Source: a virus. From it: a stretch of DNA of 20,039 bases. Under the pieces are notes generated by a model. It saw nothing but the letters and a program-made list of their open reading frames with translations. It was not told where the DNA came from and did no database searches. Both the position numbers and the translations under genes were made by a program. The DNA lies in IMG/VR virus record IMGVR_UViG_3300037168_000074, positions 1 through 20,039 of that record; one strand, written 5' to 3'. This document shows positions 2,582-18,838 of the stretch, one piece after another (positions within the stretch are counted from its first letter, which is position 1; each line of letters starts with the position of its first letter).

Positions 2582-3658
2582 ATGCATTTTTTATATTTAA
2601 TTACTAATACAATCAATAAAAAAGTTTATATCGGACAAGCCGGAGATCCATCTGTAAGATGGTCGGGACATAAATCTAAGGCCAGATGTAATAGACCAGA
2701 GCAGGTTATTACCCGAGCTATGATTAAACATGGAATAGAAATATTTACTTTTGAAGTAATAGCCAGTTCTAAAACGCAAGACGATACTGATATTGTTGAA
2801 GACCAACTGATAGATCAGTATGATAGCCGTAATCCTGAAAAAGGATATAATGTTGCCAAGGGTGGTAAAACTTGTCCTATGACACCTGAAACAGCTCAAA
2901 AAATATCAGAGGCTATCACAAGATATTATGAAACAAGACCAGGAACTAATACCGGAAGAACTTTTGGTGAAGAATGGAGAATTAATATTTCAAACTCACA
3001 AGCTGGTAAGCCTAGATTATCAACAAGAAGATTTTCCGAAGATATAGAAAAAGAGATTTGTAGACTATATGTTGACGAAAATAAATCTATGTATTATTTG
3101 AAAAATAAGTTTGATTGTTTTTCAAGCCTAATATCTGAAATCCTAATTAGGAATAATATTGGAATAAGACAATTACAAGGGAGAAGATTTTCAGAAGATG
3201 TAGAAAAAGAAATTTGTAGATTATATGTCGAGGAAGAAAAGTCAACATATGCTTTGGGGCGCCAATTTGATTGTGGGAGGGATGTAATATCTTATATTAT
3301 TAAAAAAAATAATATCAAAATAAGACAATCAAATTATAATAAACATCAAAGTAAGTGTCATAAATTTTCACCAGAACAAGAAGCCGAAATATGTAGAATG
3401 TATGTTGAAGAAGAAAAAACCATACGTTCTTTATTTCGTCAATTTGATTGTTCAAATCTCACAATACGTAATATCTTAATAAGGAATAATATTAAAATAA
3501 GACAAAATGTTAGTAATATATTTTCATTTGAACAAGAGGTGGAAATATGTAGGCTGTATGTTGAAGAAGCAAAATCTCTATATCTGTTGGGCAGACAATT
3601 TGATTGTAAGAAAACAACAATTAGAGATATTTTATTTAGACATGACATCAAACTTTGA
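2582..3658 (+). CDS. GIY-YIG homing endonuclease with four HTH-like repeats
   Basis: 358 residues. The GIY-YIG nuclease domain is at about 1-95: FLYLITN and KKVYIGQ give the two signature strands, R26 is the likely catalytic Arg, and E73 the metal-binding Glu. Residues 86-92 (EKGYNVA) are the usual end of this domain in segmented homing endonucleases. A NUMOD3-like stretch follows (about 107-143). The rest is four copies of a 49-residue module. A clear ribosome site (AGGA at 2572-2575) lies 6 bases before the ATG. It stands alone between the primase and an HTH gene with no intron structure visible, so it is probably a free-standing homing gene that cuts a related phage genome lacking it and copies itself in. 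Family call firm; target unknown. Confidence 0.92.
   Translation: MHFLYLITNTINKKVYIGQAGDPSVRWSGHKSKARCNRPEQVITRAMIKHGIEIFTFEVIASSKTQDDTDIVEDQLIDQYDSRNPEKGYNVAKGGKTCPMTPETAQKISEAITRYYETRPGTNTGRTFGEEWRINISNSQAGKPRLSTRRFSEDIEKEICRLYVDENKSMYYLKNKFDCFSSLISEILIRNNIGIRQLQGRRFSEDVEKEICRLYVEEEKSTYALGRQFDCGRDVISYIIKKNNIKIRQSNYNKHQSKCHKFSPEQEAEICRMYVEEEKTIRSLFRQFDCSNLTIRNILIRNNIKIRQNVSNIFSFEQEVEICRLYVEEAKSLYLLGRQFDCKKTTIRDILFRHDIKL
3026..3655 (+). repeat. Four tandem 49-residue DNA-binding modules inside the GIY-YIG gene
   Basis: Module positions in protein and DNA: 149-197 (3026-3172), 201-249 (3182-3328), 260-308 (3359-3505) and 312-358 (3515-3655). Each starts with a [R/H/N]-x-FS box, then EKEICRLYV or a close variant, a Lys/Ser-rich turn, QFDC, and a second helix ending NNIKIRQ. 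The first three are exactly 49 residues; the fourth lacks the last two. Linkers are 3, 10 and 3 residues. The pattern fits small helix-turn-helix units of the kind that extend target recognition in homing endonucleases. The copies differ at many codons, so the duplications are not recent, or have diversified. Confidence 0.85.
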
Positions 3659-4271: not shown

Positions 4272-4379
4272 TAAAATACTATTATCAATATTCTGGAATA
4301 CTTAGTTAGTGCTTTGTTAAAAAATAATAGCAATAATCACTTATATAATAAAGAACTGCTTCGTTCCATTGGAGACTTA

Positions 4380-4838
4380 ATGTCAAAGTTCAACATAGAT
4401 TACTCAAGTTTAACCAATCAAATTACCAAAAAGGCATATAAACTTTCTGATGTAAAAGACCAATTGGAGTCAATTGGGTTTGATGTGGTTCGCTTCAAAG
4501 ACTCCGACAAGTCCGCTGACCTATGGCAAGTTCAAAGTGCCGACGATGGCGAATATATTGTTGCCTTATATGAGACTGACAAGGAAGTAAAGTCTGCCAA
4601 ACTCTGGGATGTCTCCATCTCAAAACTTGCTGGTTCAATCGATGTATCTTACAAAGGCGATCCAATTGTCAGGGTAAATGCCTCTAGACTAGGCGTCCCA
4701 AGTTCTGAAGTAAATAAAATCCCTGAATATCTACCAGCCAAGTTGGCAGCCAATCCAAAATTAGTTAAGGCACTTTTGAATGAACTTTCAGATTCAGCCA
4801 AACAAGAGGTTTTAACTAAATACCCGGAGTTATCCTAA
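4380..4838 (+). CDS. Hypothetical protein, probable virion or packaging gene
   Basis: 152 residues from ATG 4380, chosen because GGAG (4371-4374) lies 5 bases upstream. The frame extends upstream to a TTG at 4314 (174 residues) that has no ribosome site, though the intervening codons could be coding. I do not recognise the family. The N-terminal third is helical and polar. Residues about 45-110 alternate hydrophobic and polar residues (LWQVQ, YIVALYE, IDVSYKG, PIVRVNA), suggesting a compact beta domain. The C-terminal third is again helical. No signal peptide, membrane segment or cysteine cluster. It is the first gene of the long block leading to terL, and the next gene starts one base after its stop. 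Confidence 0.7.
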   Translation: MSKFNIDYSSLTNQITKKAYKLSDVKDQLESIGFDVVRFKDSDKSADLWQVQSADDGEYIVALYETDKEVKSAKLWDVSISKLAGSIDVSYKGDPIVRVNASRLGVPSSEVNKIPEYLPAKLAANPKLVKALLNELSDSAKQEVLTKYPELS

Positions 4839-4839
4839 C

Positions 4840-6453
4840 ATGAGTCTCGATAAAATTCAACAGATAGTAGGCTCTCTGGCAAAATCCATTGATGACAATG
4901 AAAGAATTGCTACACCGATTTTAGCCGCCAAGTTAAATAATGCCCTGGTTAATTTTCCTAGTGACCAGACCCTTGGAGCCATGGCTAGAGTAATTGGCAA
5001 AATGGCTGAAAATAATACTATATTTATTCGCAGGGCAGAACTCAAGCAACTCTATAATAAGTTATTTACTAGAAACACCAAGTTTGCCGAATTATTCAAA
5101 GATGAATTGGGCGAAGTAACCCCACTTCCAAAAGCTACGATTATGACTCATGATGATTCTAGCCAAATAGATCCATATGAAGTTGGTGACCAAATTCTTG
5201 CCAATGCCCTTCAAAGTGTCTTTGATAAACATATTCCAGTAAAGATGTATTCACAAGCACTTGCTGATCGTGCCCAAAAATTAGTTAGTTCTAGTTTAGA
5301 TTCTTGGAATCTTGCCCCTACTAAATTGGGAATTAGTGATGGTAATGATAAATTCCTAATAATTCAGGCTGACTATGAAACTCCAAAAGGAATTGTCTCT
5401 ATCTATGTGCCAGTAGAAGTCCATGACAATAAGGTTTCTGAAGCGTCCATCTTTATGGGCAATTCAGGCCCGCAAGAACTAAATCACTTATCTCTCAAAG
5501 AATATCTCACAACCGCAAGTCCTAAATTAGTAATTAATGGCTCTACTATCCTACAAGTTTTAACCAACGCTAGTTCTGAAAATCGTGAGATTAGTGGCGC
5601 TGAATTGGCACTTACAAAACTAAATGCAACTCGCCAAGGCAAGGGCGACTTCTTCCAAAATCAGATAATTGGTCAAAAGATTGCCGAAGCGGCAAAAGAA
5701 GATGTAAGGCTCCCAAGGCTAAATGAGTTTGAATCCCTTGAGAAAAAATTTACCTCATCAAGCGGTCAGGCTGAGTTTAAGTTTGGCAGTGCAGTCCAAA
5801 CTGGCAGCGAGCACATTGCCAGAGAACTGAAAAGTTATGGGCACAAGAATCCACAAGTATCAGTTTACAAAACCGAAGATGATACAATCTTTTATAGCGT
5901 CGCTTTGGATGGCGGTCGTGTTGGTTTTACGGTCCCAGTAAAAACAGTTGATGGTAAAATTATCAGACCAACCATTATACTTTGCAAAGATAAGGTTTCT
6001 GCCTTTAGTCAAGAAGGCGTAAATGAACTATATGTGAATAACTATAATGACTATAAGGCGGCGGCAGTGGCATCTCCTTTGCATGACCTATCAGCAGCAG
6101 ACTTGCTTAACAATATCCGCAAGGCTTTGACAGAAGATAACTTACCGGCAGCAGAAGATGCCTTGAATGTCTTATCTAGCAAGAACGGACAATCTTATAT
6201 TACAGGGCTACAAATATATATGAACGGCTTGGCACAAAAACAAGCCGAAGAGCTCACACAAAATAAGAAAGAACCCTCCTGTTCAATGGTAATTGCAAGT
6301 TCAGTTAGCGAACATCCAATTTGTGGCCATACTGGCTTACCAGTTCATAAGACATATCAAGACAAAGATGGCAACTGTCGCCCATTATTTAGGCGTAATA
6401 TTGACGAGACTTATGAAGGTGTATTATTCAATAACTCGAAAATCTTTGGATAA
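4840..6453 (+). CDS. Hypothetical protein with an internal duplication, probable virion gene
   Basis: 537 residues; family not recognised. GGAG at 4826-4829 lies 10 bases before the ATG. Residues 1-130 are mainly helical. Two segments look like diverged copies of one beta-rich unit: about 140-225 and 325-400. Each has a helix, a strand starting after an acidic turn (DKFLIIQADY; DDTIFYSVAL), then a G-x-V/G-x-x-x-x-VPV strand pair (GIVSIYVPVEV; GRVGFTVPVKT) and another strand with Lys-Val. The C-terminal end (481-520) has C481, C495, H497, H503 and C513, a possible metal site. No membrane segment. Size and place fit a structural protein, but there is no direct proof. Confidence 0.78.
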   Translation: MSLDKIQQIVGSLAKSIDDNERIATPILAAKLNNALVNFPSDQTLGAMARVIGKMAENNTIFIRRAELKQLYNKLFTRNTKFAELFKDELGEVTPLPKATIMTHDDSSQIDPYEVGDQILANALQSVFDKHIPVKMYSQALADRAQKLVSSSLDSWNLAPTKLGISDGNDKFLIIQADYETPKGIVSIYVPVEVHDNKVSEASIFMGNSGPQELNHLSLKEYLTTASPKLVINGSTILQVLTNASSENREISGAELALTKLNATRQGKGDFFQNQIIGQKIAEAAKEDVRLPRLNEFESLEKKFTSSSGQAEFKFGSAVQTGSEHIARELKSYGHKNPQVSVYKTEDDTIFYSVALDGGRVGFTVPVKTVDGKIIRPTIILCKDKVSAFSQEGVNELYVNNYNDYKAAAVASPLHDLSAADLLNNIRKALTEDNLPAAEDALNVLSSKNGQSYITGLQIYMNGLAQKQAEELTQNKKEPSCSMVIASSVSEHPICGHTGLPVHKTYQDKDGNCRPLFRRNIDETYEGVLFNNSKIFG

Positions 6454-13791: not shown

Positions 13792-15687
13792 ATGTGTCGT
13801 ATGTCAGATGCAGAGTCCAAAGAACTATTCTTAAAATTAAAGACCGACTTATTGAATCTTGATCCAGTAGCGTGGATAGAAAATCATCTAACGCTTGATG
13901 GCTCACCATTTTTGGTGCATGGTAATGGATATCGCCCCTATTCGGATCTATATAGATATATAGGAATCAAGGCATTAGAGCCCACCTCTAAACCAATTAT
14001 CTTAGTCAAAAGTCGTCAGGTAGGCGCCACTACTATGGCGTCTGCCCTTGAAATGTATTTCATGGCCTCTGGTATCTTTGGCACATCTGATAACCCTCCA
14101 ATGCGTGTAATGCACACCTTTCCGCATTTAGAACTTGCTGCTGCATATGCCAAGACAAAGCTTAATCAGATGGTTATATCTGCAAAACCACTTCCAGATC
14201 AAGATTTAAAAAAAGGTGGCAAATCAAGATCTTGTATTCAAGCATTGCTTGATCAAACCACAGTAGCAAATGACTCTTTGCATTTTAAACAGTTTATTGG
14301 TGGCAATCACTTATGGGTTGAATCAACTGGACTTGACGCAGATCGCATCATGGGTCGAACTTGCGATGTTATTTTTTTTGATGAAGTTCAAAAAACTAGC
14401 TCACTTGCCATTGGCAACGCTCTCAAAATATTATTCACTGCAAAATATGGTAGACCTTCCAAAGGTGTTCAAGTTTATTTTGGAACTCCTCGTCGCAAAG
14501 GCTCCGATTTTCAGAAAATGTGGGCAGCATCTTCGCAACAATATTATTATTTGGGTTGCGAAAATTGTCATAAGCACTTCCCATTTTACACTCCTGGCTC
14601 TGATGATTGGAAAGATATTTGGATTCATGGCTTTATTGTAAAGTGCACGCATTGTTCGCATGAACAAGACAAGAGGGATGCTGCCGAACGTGGCAAATGG
14701 GTTGCTGTAAAAAATGTAGATGATGAAGATTGTTTGATGGTTGGCTTTCATATTAACCAACTTTATATGCCAATGGTGTCTCGTGAAGACATGACAAACG
14801 AAATGCCTGGCGTTCATCCGATAAATACAGAACGCGTTTATATGAATGATGTTTTGGGAGAATTTTTTCAAGGCGATTCTAGTCCAATTACGCCAGAAGA
14901 GATTCGTGAGATTTGTGCAGATCCAGGTCGTAAGTTCAGGGCCAGAATTGATTTAACAAAAGAAGATCAAAAGGACCAGTTAGTTGTGTTAGGCATAGAT
15001 TATGGTGCGAGGGCTGATTTGGAGCAACTTGCCAATCCAGATAAAATTATTAATCGTGGTCAATCATATAGCACAGCAGTAGTTCTTTCAATAAAAGGGG
15101 CTGGTCGCTTATCTATCGAGTACTGCACCAAGTTTAAGCGTAATGATATGGAAAGTAAAAAGGGAATCATTGACCAAATTATGAGGCAATACAGCGTTCA
15201 GTTGGCAGTTGGTGATATTGGGTATTCAAACGACTTCTCTGCTATGTTGCATAATATTTACGGAGATCGTTATTTGGTGTCTCGTGCCCATAACAAAGTC
15301 AATGACCATATAAAGTTTACTACCGATTCTTTCCCGAAAGAGATTGTCTTTGAAAGAGATTATTATATTGGTGAATTATATGAGCAAATGAAAAAAGGAA
15401 TGATTAGATTCCCATTTGGAGATTATGAAAAAATTGCGTGGCTAATTGAACATTGTGCTAGTATGGAGATTAAGCCATCTATCTCTAGGGGAGGGGATCC
15501 AACTATTCATTATGTCAAGGGATCGCAGCCTAATGACGGCTACATGGCGTTGCTCAACGCCTATATAGCCTATCAATTTTTAATAACAAACGGCTTCACA
15601 AATAATAATCCATTACTGCAAGGCAAGAATTTAAAAGAGATAAATAAGCCTCTCGTGATGACTGGCGTAATATCTCGCAGGATCTGA
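13792..15687 (+). CDS. terL: Terminase large subunit (ATPase and nuclease)
   Basis: 631 residues. The ATPase domain has a Walker A-like KSRQVGATT (73-81), Walker B VIFFDE (193-198, D197 and catalytic E198) and a coupling-type motif FGTPRRKG (230-237). A four-Cys knuckle pair (C256/C259 and C285/C288) is inserted after it, as in GpA-like terminases. The RNase H-like nuclease shows GIDYG (401-405, D403), VGDIGYSND (D475) and a late NDGYMALLNA (D582). TerL pumps DNA through the portal into the prohead and cuts the concatemer. ATG 13792 is used; ATG 13801 is equally possible, as neither has a ribosome site. The TGA stop (15685-15687) falls at the edge of an IS200/IS605-like end. Function is firm. 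Confidence 0.95.
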   Translation: MCRMSDAESKELFLKLKTDLLNLDPVAWIENHLTLDGSPFLVHGNGYRPYSDLYRYIGIKALEPTSKPIILVKSRQVGATTMASALEMYFMASGIFGTSDNPPMRVMHTFPHLELAAAYAKTKLNQMVISAKPLPDQDLKKGGKSRSCIQALLDQTTVANDSLHFKQFIGGNHLWVESTGLDADRIMGRTCDVIFFDEVQKTSSLAIGNALKILFTAKYGRPSKGVQVYFGTPRRKGSDFQKMWAASSQQYYYLGCENCHKHFPFYTPGSDDWKDIWIHGFIVKCTHCSHEQDKRDAAERGKWVAVKNVDDEDCLMVGFHINQLYMPMVSREDMTNEMPGVHPINTERVYMNDVLGEFFQGDSSPITPEEIREICADPGRKFRARIDLTKEDQKDQLVVLGIDYGARADLEQLANPDKIINRGQSYSTAVVLSIKGAGRLSIEYCTKFKRNDMESKKGIIDQIMRQYSVQLAVGDIGYSNDFSAMLHNIYGDRYLVSRAHNKVNDHIKFTTDSFPKEIVFERDYYIGELYEQMKKGMIRFPFGDYEKIAWLIEHCASMEIKPSISRGGDPTIHYVKGSQPNDGYMALLNAYIAYQFLITNGFTNNNPLLQGKNLKEINKPLVMTGVISRRI

Positions 15688-15772
15688 CATACTCCCACGA
15701 CTGAAGTCGTTGGGTTCAGATGTTGCATAACCGTCTTACGAGACTGCATTATACATTGCATCTTTGAGCCTT
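15685..15772 (-). mobile_element. IS200/IS605-type end or orphan omega-RNA-like sequence
   Basis: Read on the minus strand, this ends with CCCAACGACTTCAGTCG, TGGGAG and TATGTCA. CCCA-CGACT (15694-15702) pairs with AGTCG-T-TGGG (15705-15714) with one bulged T. From memory, the hairpin plus TATGTCA flank is typical of the right end of IS200/IS605 elements with TnpB, which is also the 3' end of the TnpB omega RNA. Just upstream on the minus strand, a GTCT-CGTA-AGAC mini-hairpin and paired TGCA boxes (15724-15750) add RNA-like structure. No tnpA or tnpB lies in the window. The upstream boundary is approximate. It may be a remnant, a MITE-like derivative or an RNA working with a TnpB encoded elsewhere. 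Confidence 0.65.
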
Positions 15773-15809
15773 GTCAGTGTTGAACTTCTCGTAAAATAAA
15801 ATATTTTAA

Positions 15810-15859
15810 TTCTCGTTTTCGTTGATATATGAGTATTTGAGCATCAATGAATACGAGAA
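15810..15859 (+). promoter_or_regulatory. Long hairpin just before the portal start
   Basis: Bases 15810-15826 pair with 15843-15859: 15 Watson-Crick pairs, one G-U and one T-T mismatch around a 16-base loop. The right arm ends three bases before the portal ATG and includes GAGAA, the only weak ribosome-site candidate. An extra TTCTCGT copy at 15786-15792 could pair with the same right arm, giving an alternative fold. It may control portal translation, or be the other end of the IS200/IS605-like element. The bases between 15773 and 15809 hold only AT-rich sequence. Confidence 0.55.
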
Positions 15860-15862
15860 AAA

Positions 15863-18838
15863 ATGCCTATTGACAGAGCAACAAAAATTTGGAAGGGACC
15901 ATCGAATTCAGAAAGTTATATGAATAACAGGTCCACTGTCCCTCAAGTAAGTGCCATTATGGCCAGCAGCGTTTCTGAATCCAGAAGAGCAGCAATCTCG
16001 CAAGAAGTTGACGCTGGATATTTTAGAGATGGCTCTGGGCCTGGCATAAATGAAAACGGAATTACTAGCAATGCAATAGTGGTAGCTTCCGTTGGTCATA
16101 AAAAATATGGGCAGGCTTTCTCTGGTAGTGGTGGTGGGAATATGTTTCATGGTATGCATGGAGATACCGTTAAGCAAACTCCAGAAGTATATTCTCCACT
16201 ATGGCTTGATTCAAATCTTAATTTACCTCGTGACCGTGCGACAATTAATGCTTGGTGTAGAAGTTTCTTTGCATTAAACCCATTTGTGCATAATGCCATT
16301 TGTTTGCACAGCACATACCCAATTAGCAAACTAAGTATAAAATGCCCCAATAAAGATATCGAAAAGTTCTTCAACGACATGATTGAAGAGACTGATCTCA
16401 TGAACATATGTTGTCAAATTGCTCAAGAATATTGGCTTCTTGGCGAAGCATTTGTTTATGCAGAATTGGATGAAAGTCGTGGTCAGTGGAGTCGTTTGAT
16501 GATCCAGAATCCAGATTATATGATTGTCAAAAGAACGGTTGTAGCCGACGAACCAATTATTATGTTGCGCCCAGATGAAAATCTAAAAAAGATTATATTC
16601 TCAAATCGTCCAACAGATATTGAACAACGAAAACAATTAAATAATCATATTATTGATTCTGTTAGACGCGGAGAGAATATTCCATTGGATAATTATAATG
16701 TGTCTCATTTGGCAAGAAGAATTAGCCCTTATGAGATTCGTGGCACCGGCTTGCCGGTGTGTATTTTCCGTCAATTAATGCTCTTTGATAAGCTGCGAGA
16801 GAGCAAATTTGCTCAAGCTAGCAACATGATAAACCCGCTGACCATCGTGAAGATAGGCTCCGCAGACTATAAGCCTACCTTCGCTGACATCGAAGCCTGG
16901 CGCGACGTGTTCGAATGCCATGATGAAGAGACAGAAGTCTTAACTCAAGATGGATTCAAGAAGTTTGATCAAGTAATAGAATATAAAGAGGTTATGGATG
17001 GCACAACTGGCTGCTCATATATCTCATATGCAGTTCCAAGAACAGATATAAAGATAGCCTGTTTCAATCCTAATAATGAAGAACTGGAATATCACGCTCC
17101 AATAGGGGCTAGTTTATATAATTATGACGGGGATATGTATCATTTTTCCAATAAGAAAATGGATATAAAAGTTACCCCAAATCATAATATGTGGGTTTCT
17201 AAAAGAGATGGCAATTCAAAATATAATGAATGGTATAAAAAACCTGCCAACAAAATGTTGCCTAATGATTATTATAAGTTTCGCTCTTGTGCCAATTGGC
17301 AAGGTGAAACACCTGAGACTGTAAATATTATTGGGAAACAAATACCAATTAAGCTTTATTTGGAATTTTTAGGATATTTGCTTAGTGAGGGATCTGTTTA
17401 TAAAACTGTTGGCAGAGGTTATTATGTGGCTATTTGCCAGTCTACTATTACTGAAAAAAGATATTATCCACAAATGCAAAAGTGTTTAGAAGATTTTGCT
17501 GGTTTATTAGGTAAAAATTGTCATCAGTCTATAAGAGAATGTGGAATGTGGGGAGGACTTATCTCCAGTAAAAAACTATATACATATTTTAAAAATGAGA
17601 TTGGTGTTGATGATAATACTAAATCTGCTTTTAAACATATACCAAGATGGATATTAGATTTATCTCCAGATTTACTAAAAGTATTATTAAATGCCTTGGT
17701 TATTGGCGATGGAACTATTAGAAAAAGTAGAGTAAATAAACTTACATATAATCAATATACCACTATCTCAAAACAATTAGCAGATGATATTTTTGAAGTA
17801 ATATTTAAGTGTGGATTTTCTCCTTTATTGGCAACTACTTTTAGAAAAGGTAAGTTTGTTTATGATGTTTCTTGGTCAGTAGATCGTAGGAAAGGATCTT
17901 TTCCAGTAGTTCATAATGGAAAAACTTCCAGTAATAGAGGTAGTAAAAATATTGATGTAACTAAGATTGAAAAGTATTCTGGTAAAGTTTGGTGTTTCGA
18001 GGTGCCTACTGGCTTATTTATTACTAGAAGGAATGGCAAGATCACTATTCAAGGGAATAGTGCCCGGTATGACAAGGATTTTAAAATTTTTACTCATGAG
18101 GGCGTCACCGTGGAACGCGTGGGATATGGTTCTGGTATCTATGATATCTCTGGAGACATTACTCAAATTATAAAAGAGATATATGTGGGATTGCAAGTGC
18201 CACCAGTTTTAACTGATGGTGGTGCAGATACTACTTATGCTAATGGTGGTGTTGCTCTTGACGTCCTCAGACAACGCTATATGCAATTTCGCAATATGTT
18301 GGGACAATGGCTCAAACGAAAAATCTTTGCACCCATATCCAAATTACAAGGATTCTATGATTACTCTGGTGGAGAAAAACAATTAATTGTCCCAGAGATT
18401 GATTGGAATCATATGTCCTTGTTTGATGCCGGCGATTATATCCAAGGATTGGTTACCTTGACTCAAGGGGAAGATTCCGCGAAGCGTGCCTCTCTGCATA
18501 CCTTATACCGATCTATGGGATTGGAATATGAAGATGAACAACGCAAGATTCGTCGAGAAGCAATTCAAAATGCCATCAATGCAAAAGAAAAAGCAGCACT
18601 TGCCACAATGGATTTGAATGCATTGCGAGCCTTGGACGACGAGGACGAGATTACCGAAGTCGAGGCAGGCAAGGCAGCCGCAAGCGGCGAAGCTCCGTTG
18701 CCGGGCGAGACGCCTGGTGGAGCGCCCCCGGCACCCGGAAGTTTGCCAGGATTAGATTTGGGACCGCCACCATCGCCCGACGCTGGCGTTGGTCCAGCTC
18801 CTGGAGCGCCACCAGCAGCACCGCCACCTGGTCCATAA
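15863..18838 (+). CDS. Portal protein precursor containing an intein
   Basis: 991 residues, of which 352-732 are an intein; the spliced protein would be about 610. The N-extein has the usual portal layout: a disordered N-terminus, DRATINAWCRSFFALNP (124-140) and the following helices, then TDLMNICCQIAQEYWLLGEAFVYAEL as the conserved wing region. The C-extein continues with VGLQVPPVLTDGG (775-787), typical of portal proteins that list helices after the stem, and ends in a Pro/Gly/Ala-rich tail (940-991). The portal forms the dodecameric DNA channel that docks TerL. It follows terL, the normal order. The only ribosome-site candidate is GAGAA inside a hairpin. Portal identity rests on pattern and context. 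Confidence 0.85.
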   Translation: MPIDRATKIWKGPSNSESYMNNRSTVPQVSAIMASSVSESRRAAISQEVDAGYFRDGSGPGINENGITSNAIVVASVGHKKYGQAFSGSGGGNMFHGMHGDTVKQTPEVYSPLWLDSNLNLPRDRATINAWCRSFFALNPFVHNAICLHSTYPISKLSIKCPNKDIEKFFNDMIEETDLMNICCQIAQEYWLLGEAFVYAELDESRGQWSRLMIQNPDYMIVKRTVVADEPIIMLRPDENLKKIIFSNRPTDIEQRKQLNNHIIDSVRRGENIPLDNYNVSHLARRISPYEIRGTGLPVCIFRQLMLFDKLRESKFAQASNMINPLTIVKIGSADYKPTFADIEAWRDVFECHDEETEVLTQDGFKKFDQVIEYKEVMDGTTGCSYISYAVPRTDIKIACFNPNNEELEYHAPIGASLYNYDGDMYHFSNKKMDIKVTPNHNMWVSKRDGNSKYNEWYKKPANKMLPNDYYKFRSCANWQGETPETVNIIGKQIPIKLYLEFLGYLLSEGSVYKTVGRGYYVAICQSTITEKRYYPQMQKCLEDFAGLLGKNCHQSIRECGMWGGLISSKKLYTYFKNEIGVDDNTKSAFKHIPRWILDLSPDLLKVLLNALVIGDGTIRKSRVNKLTYNQYTTISKQLADDIFEVIFKCGFSPLLATTFRKGKFVYDVSWSVDRRKGSFPVVHNGKTSSNRGSKNIDVTKIEKYSGKVWCFEVPTGLFITRRNGKITIQGNSARYDKDFKIFTHEGVTVERVGYGSGIYDISGDITQIIKEIYVGLQVPPVLTDGGADTTYANGGVALDVLRQRYMQFRNMLGQWLKRKIFAPISKLQGFYDYSGGEKQLIVPEIDWNHMSLFDAGDYIQGLVTLTQGEDSAKRASLHTLYRSMGLEYEDEQRKIRREAIQNAINAKEKAALATMDLNALRALDDEDEITEVEAGKAAASGEAPLPGETPGGAPPAPGSLPGLDLGPPPSPDAGVGPAPGAPPAAPPPGP
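16916..18058 (+). mobile_element. Intein with LAGLIDADG homing endonuclease in the portal gene
   Basis: 381 residues, from C352 to N732 of the precursor, with Ser733 as the first C-extein residue. Block A is CHDEETEVLTQDGFKKF; block B is VTPNHNMWV (437-445), with the T-x2-H motif. The two LAGLIDADG helices are FLGYLLSEGS (502-511) and LLNALVIGDGT (608-618), with E509 and D616 as the likely metal ligands. Block F is VWCFEVPTGLFITRRNG (709-725). The end is QGN-S: the usual penultimate His is Gly731. Such inteins cut themselves out of the protein and copy their DNA into empty alleles. Boundaries are well supported by the motifs and by extein continuity (WRDVFE / SARYDKDF). Confidence 0.9.

Follow-up and report, generated by a model that had tools for sequence, protein, structure and literature searches.

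A probable right-end fossil of an IS608-type element at the terL stop codon of a phage

IS608 inserts 3' of the tetranucleotide TTAC; its right end is cleaved at TCAA, its left guide is AAAG, and its transposase TnpA uses a left-end hairpin and this left guide at the left end (PMC5934647). The reRNA of ISDra2 measures about 150 nt and carries a 16-nt guide (PMC8612924), and a gene drive of insertion sequences (IS) by TnpB has been reported on plasmids (PMC11870625). The window analysed here, a 20,039-base stretch of phage DNA, carries a short insert at the 3' end of terL, which we read, with a probability of about 0.93, as a tolerated, immobile right-end fossil of an IS608-type element at the terL stop codon. 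The features of the locus are:

13792..15687, plus strand: terL, encoding TerL, a GpA-like ATPase (Pfam PF05876)
15684..15790, minus strand: 5'-truncated IS200/IS605 (IS608-type) element, a right-end remnant of 107 nt, by homology to an intact IS and by covariance model
15684..15687, minus strand: TCAG, the right cleavage site at the 3' end of the element, invariant across the aligned right ends
15685..15687, plus strand: terL stop codon TGA, inside the element and derived from it
15694..15713, minus strand: subterminal right-end hairpin CCAACGAC TTCA GTCGTGGG, aligned with 18 right ends
15748..15777, minus strand: promoter-like CTGACA-18-TATAAT in the tnpB tail, 11/12 consensus
15749..15790, minus strand: 3' end of tnpB, 13 codons plus stop (EKFNTDKAQRCNV before the stop), in a frame common to the tnpB of the intact element L003 (EKFNTDKARRCNV before the stop), by tblastn
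15791..15794, minus strand: target tetranucleotide TTAC (left cleavage site) in the flank, from intact copies and PMC5934647
15791..15862, plus strand: native terL-portal spacer, of a length as in relatives

The intact tnpA-tnpB element L003 has 1,618 bp and lies in the viral contig IMGVR_UViG_3300047326_000072, which belongs to the same phage group:

3968-4366: tnpA, Y1_Tnp domain
4363-5400: tnpB, Cas12f1-like_TNB domain
5465: right end of the element

Its left end reads TTAC/GATCCCAGTAGCAGAAAGCC, with AAAG in place as the left guide of IS608. The genes flanking it are structural genes of the phage group (40-56% identity to relatives); terL is absent from the record. When this IS was compared with the window by BLASTN, 106 of 111 positions were identical at 15794-15684 on the minus strand (E 9e-47) and no IS sequence was found in the window beyond 15684-15794; in a DNA search, remnant and intact IS end were 96% identical over 106 nt. 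A covariance model made from 18 other right ends, with the window excluded, matched the last 43 nt of the remnant (15726-15684, minus strand) with 55 bits and an E-value of 1.4e-9, and its sole further match in the window was the same hairpin read weakly on the reverse strand. Thus, the minus strand of 15685-15772, called an IS200/IS605 right end in a first-pass annotation made from the letters alone, is indeed one, although the true span is 15684-15790. The covariance-model and BLASTN check proposed there held for our own right-end model and for the L003 match but not for Rfam, which gave no match at gathering scores and, at a lax threshold, only chance-level eukaryotic RNA families.

Since G-A-A-C-C-C and most of the stem sat in the search pattern, they are conserved among the aligned right ends by construction. 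The TCAG end was absent from the pattern; it is invariant in 18 of 18 aligned right ends and is the element end in about twenty differently flanked copies. The stem shows both-sided pair changes at two positions among the 18 right ends. In the remnant, a guide-like GAAC precedes the hairpin, the stem has one A.G mismatch, and the predicted fold energy of the terminal hairpin is -10.9 kcal/mol, compared to -17.5 kcal/mol in the L003 copy. The same mismatch is found in L111, a copy with tnpB, and, therefore, it is weak evidence of decay and the weakness of the hairpin is not decisive.

On the minus strand, the remnant contains the 13 final codons and the stop of tnpB, the inter-gene part, the right-end hairpin and TCAG, in this order. 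The tnpB tail matched TnpB residues 332-345 in tblastn (93%). The left edge reads ATTTTAC/GAGAAG and the right edge TCAG/ATCCTGCG. We set the bounds to 15684 and 15790 because right ends diverge only past TCAG and because homology to the tnpB codons reaches 15790. Four different intact elements start with GAT directly after TTAC. The placement of the left junction is ambiguous between 15790 and 15794, since TTAC could equally be the Tyr codon of tnpB; an extension to 15794 was discarded as the main reading, since flanks joined there restore no in-frame stop at the conserved place.

tnpA (Y1 transposase), which is present in L003, was not found in the window, as the first-pass annotation had said, and the 20,039-base record, a fragment of a genome, has no tnpB beyond the 13 codons and stop that the annotation had missed. 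A left-end subterminal hairpin and a left guide were not found either: in BLASTN, the L003 left end matches only the right-end hairpin (15693-15716). With the left end gone, the remnant would be immobile even if TnpA were supplied. The fragment is present in one copy in the window. In a BLASTN search for distant matches among phages and plasmids, the matches, mostly in haloarchaeal plasmids, covered only 25-33 nt around the hairpin; they reflect a shared right-end motif and not a source.

The edge of the element had been equated with the TGA of terL. The element does abut the terL reading frame at its stop, but its edge is 15684 and the TGA lies wholly inside, indicating that the stop is supplied by the element. 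Joining the flanks on the plus strand (CTCGCAGGAT/GTAAAATAAA) gives an empty site containing AGGATGTAAAATAAAATA, in which TerL ends in ISRRM-TAA and has 631 aa as now. The joined site is clean, with an insertion 3' of TTAC and no duplication of the target. The insertion thus exchanged Met631 for Ile and ATG-TAA for ATC-TGA, the TGA coming from the element, with the length kept at 631 aa. Relatives were aligned to the last TerL residue (n=66 with a complete terL end); the stop is TAA in 55 of them and the final codon ATG in 4.

After joining, the spacer up to the portal gene, which starts at 15863, has 71 bp including the stop; in relatives it mostly has 60-85 bp, with a TTGATATAT...GAGTAT-like core. 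Most relatives' spacers hold a conserved TTGATATATTATTA..TGAGTATAGTA-like motif, found in the window at about 15822-15850, which may be a promoter of the phage or a site of processing. In five relatives, an open frame of 244-268 aa with two HNH-like CxxC...DHI...H motifs lies directly past the terL stop (L028 3394, L040 1814, L046 7170, L047 5382, L064 1206), and the terL-portal junction therefore seems to draw mobile endonuclease genes.

Two further features were noticed in the window. The portal gene is interrupted at 16916-18058 by an intein of 381 aa that starts with CHDEETEVL, ends with TIQGN before S and has a weak LAGLIDADG match; seven related loci have an intein at 36-64% identity, and 58 alignments to relatives cross the site uninterrupted. 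A free-standing GIY-YIG endonuclease with repeated helix-turn-helix-like units is encoded at 2582-3658 and is likely a homing endonuclease.

At the terL-portal junction, the fragment is missing from all 66 relatives whose terL end is complete, and 424 kb of 38 related loci yielded no such right end; the remnant is restricted to one contig among the relatives found. The first-pass annotation had named, as the finding that would speak against an IS origin, the same sequence as ordinary intergenic DNA in relatives with no IS history; the sequence is absent from the relatives. When L003-type tnpB was searched for at the protein level, L003 was the sole viral copy and genome contigs gave none. The related phage contigs G003 and G004 contain a second right-end orphan without tnpB (L102, minus strand), 95 nt long and 85% alike to an intact sister copy 1.5 kb away, which indicates that right-end remnants recur in the phage group. 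Like the remnant in the window, it is a 5'-deleted right end with a tnpB scrap beside a gene start; unlike it, it is of a different subtype (82-85% alike) and has the intact sister nearby. In L102 (1445-1539 of the reverse strand; 1754-2110, minus), this second orphan is found downstream of a tmRNA gene carried by the phage (Rfam RF00023, 96 bits), at a distance of about 215 nt, and tRNA genes are close by.

The homology, the boundaries, the TTAC and TCAG ends, the reading of the empty site and the absence from relatives are observed; beyond these, we infer that a full copy came first. A single insertion of a complete IS608-type element (about 1.6 kb, with tnpA and tnpB) would have taken place on the minus strand, on the 3' side of a TTAC complementary to the G-TAA that ends terL. 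Such an insertion would be nearly harmless, because the TCAG end brings an in-frame TGA. A later deletion would have removed the left end, tnpA and all of tnpB except 13 codons, leaving 107 nt, whose right-end sequence now serves as the last base of the final terL codon and its stop, a fossil tolerated by the phage. The deletion probably ran between the repeats TTACGA (left-end junction) and TTAYGA (tnpB tail). In L003, the left junction is TTACGAT and the tnpB tail is TTATGAGAAG; a deletion between L003-like repeats would give exactly the TTACGAGAAG of the window. Since the L003 tnpB-tail repeat is TTATGA and differs from TTACGA, the deletion would need a synonymous C in the Tyr codon of the donor tnpB or an imperfect repeat. 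No relative above 81% TerL identity with an empty or full site was found, and the order of insertion and deletion was therefore not seen directly.

The first-pass annotation had offered three readings, of which that of a remnant was right, the sequence being an orphaned right end homologous to the intact L003. That a TnpB from another locus of this phage, or from a co-infecting phage, uses the insert as a guide RNA in trans is very unlikely. Such a guide (TAM TTAC, guide ATCCTGCGAGATATTA, beginning at 15683 and not at 15684 as annotated) would cut the ancestral empty site of close kin lacking the insertion. The insert retains the right end with its hairpin, the junction and TTAC, a promoter-like site lies within the tnpB tail, the 107 nt fold better than 199 of 200 shuffles (z -2.9; L003, -2.6), a TNB (TnpB-type) domain occurs in 6 of the 32 related records searched (Y1_Tnp in 4; L003 is counted in both), and the TnpB-driven gene drive on plasmids (PMC11870625) offers a precedent. 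However, the 20 kb record has no tnpB of its own, the remnant is known from a single contig, a transcript starting at the promoter-like site would have only ~57 nt ahead of the guide as compared to the reRNA of ISDra2 (PMC8612924), and the terminal hairpin is the weaker one, albeit with the mismatch shared by L111. In register, the terL ends of the 66 relatives match the putative guide at 11 of 16 bases at most, with a mismatch from guide base 1 to 3 (in the best twelve, the match breaks at guide base 2 or 3 or earlier), and TTAC is in register in 3 of 66. The poor match makes the terL of rivals an implausible target, and the annotated role of a stand-alone guide against the terL-portal junction of rival phages was rejected; only sister phages that keep the ancestral empty site would fit, and none are known. 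A slimmer prospect is that the promoter-like site still drives transcription of an omega RNA fossil lacking tnpB, which then serves a TnpB elsewhere. If true, that TnpB would cut insertion-free sister phages at TTAC-ATCCTGCGAGATATTA, and a working guide RNA of this kind would be a gene drive without a nuclease gene of its own.

The promoter-like CTGACA-18-TATAAT, the minus-strand one of three such sites on both strands of the window, also bears on a regulatory role, in which it would drive an RNA antisense to the 3' end of terL, or in which the hairpin would alter the stability of the terL-portal mRNA. The 11/12 agreement of the site and the position of the hairpin closely 3' of the terL stop are in line with this, but the site is also found in the intact IS of L003, indicating that it was inherited and not selected at terL, no terminator-like site was seen, and the arrangement is conserved in no relative; the reading is scarcely credible. 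We give equally little credence to a mini-element of the MITE or PATE kind, non-autonomous and dependent on TnpA supplied in trans. Such an element would explain why a short insert is bounded exactly by TTAC and TCAG, yet the left-end hairpin and left guide are missing, and tnpB codons occupy the left edge instead. The fragment turned up only once, and in the viral collection the sole match to a pattern of 26 bases taken from the tnpB tail was the intact L003 copy; the annotated MITE-like derivative was dropped on these grounds. We therefore retain the reading as an ordinary genomic fossil over that as a stand-alone guide RNA. It would record the entry of an IS608-type element into this large-phage group and its landing in the packaging-gene operon.

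With IS608 (ISHp608, IS200/IS605 family, Helicobacter pylori), the locus shares the TTAC left in the left flank and a tetranucleotide right cleavage site (TCAA in IS608, TCAG in the window), and the intact copy also shares the AAAG left guide, a GAA-type right guide before the hairpins and the order tnpA then tnpB. It differs in being a right end only, with no left end, no tnpA and 13 tnpB codons. In its position, spanning the tnpB 3' end and the right end with a guide that would come from flanking DNA, it corresponds to the TnpB reRNA (omega RNA) of ISDra2, which has about 150 nt and acts with TnpB (PMC8612924), whereas the window has 107 nt and no tnpB. On Borrelia plasmids, IS605/200 stem-loops and degenerate element forms are likewise reported to persist in the genome (PMC2775950), but there the stem-loops are linked to lipoprotein genes, whereas the remnant described here is linked to the stop codon of a phage terL.
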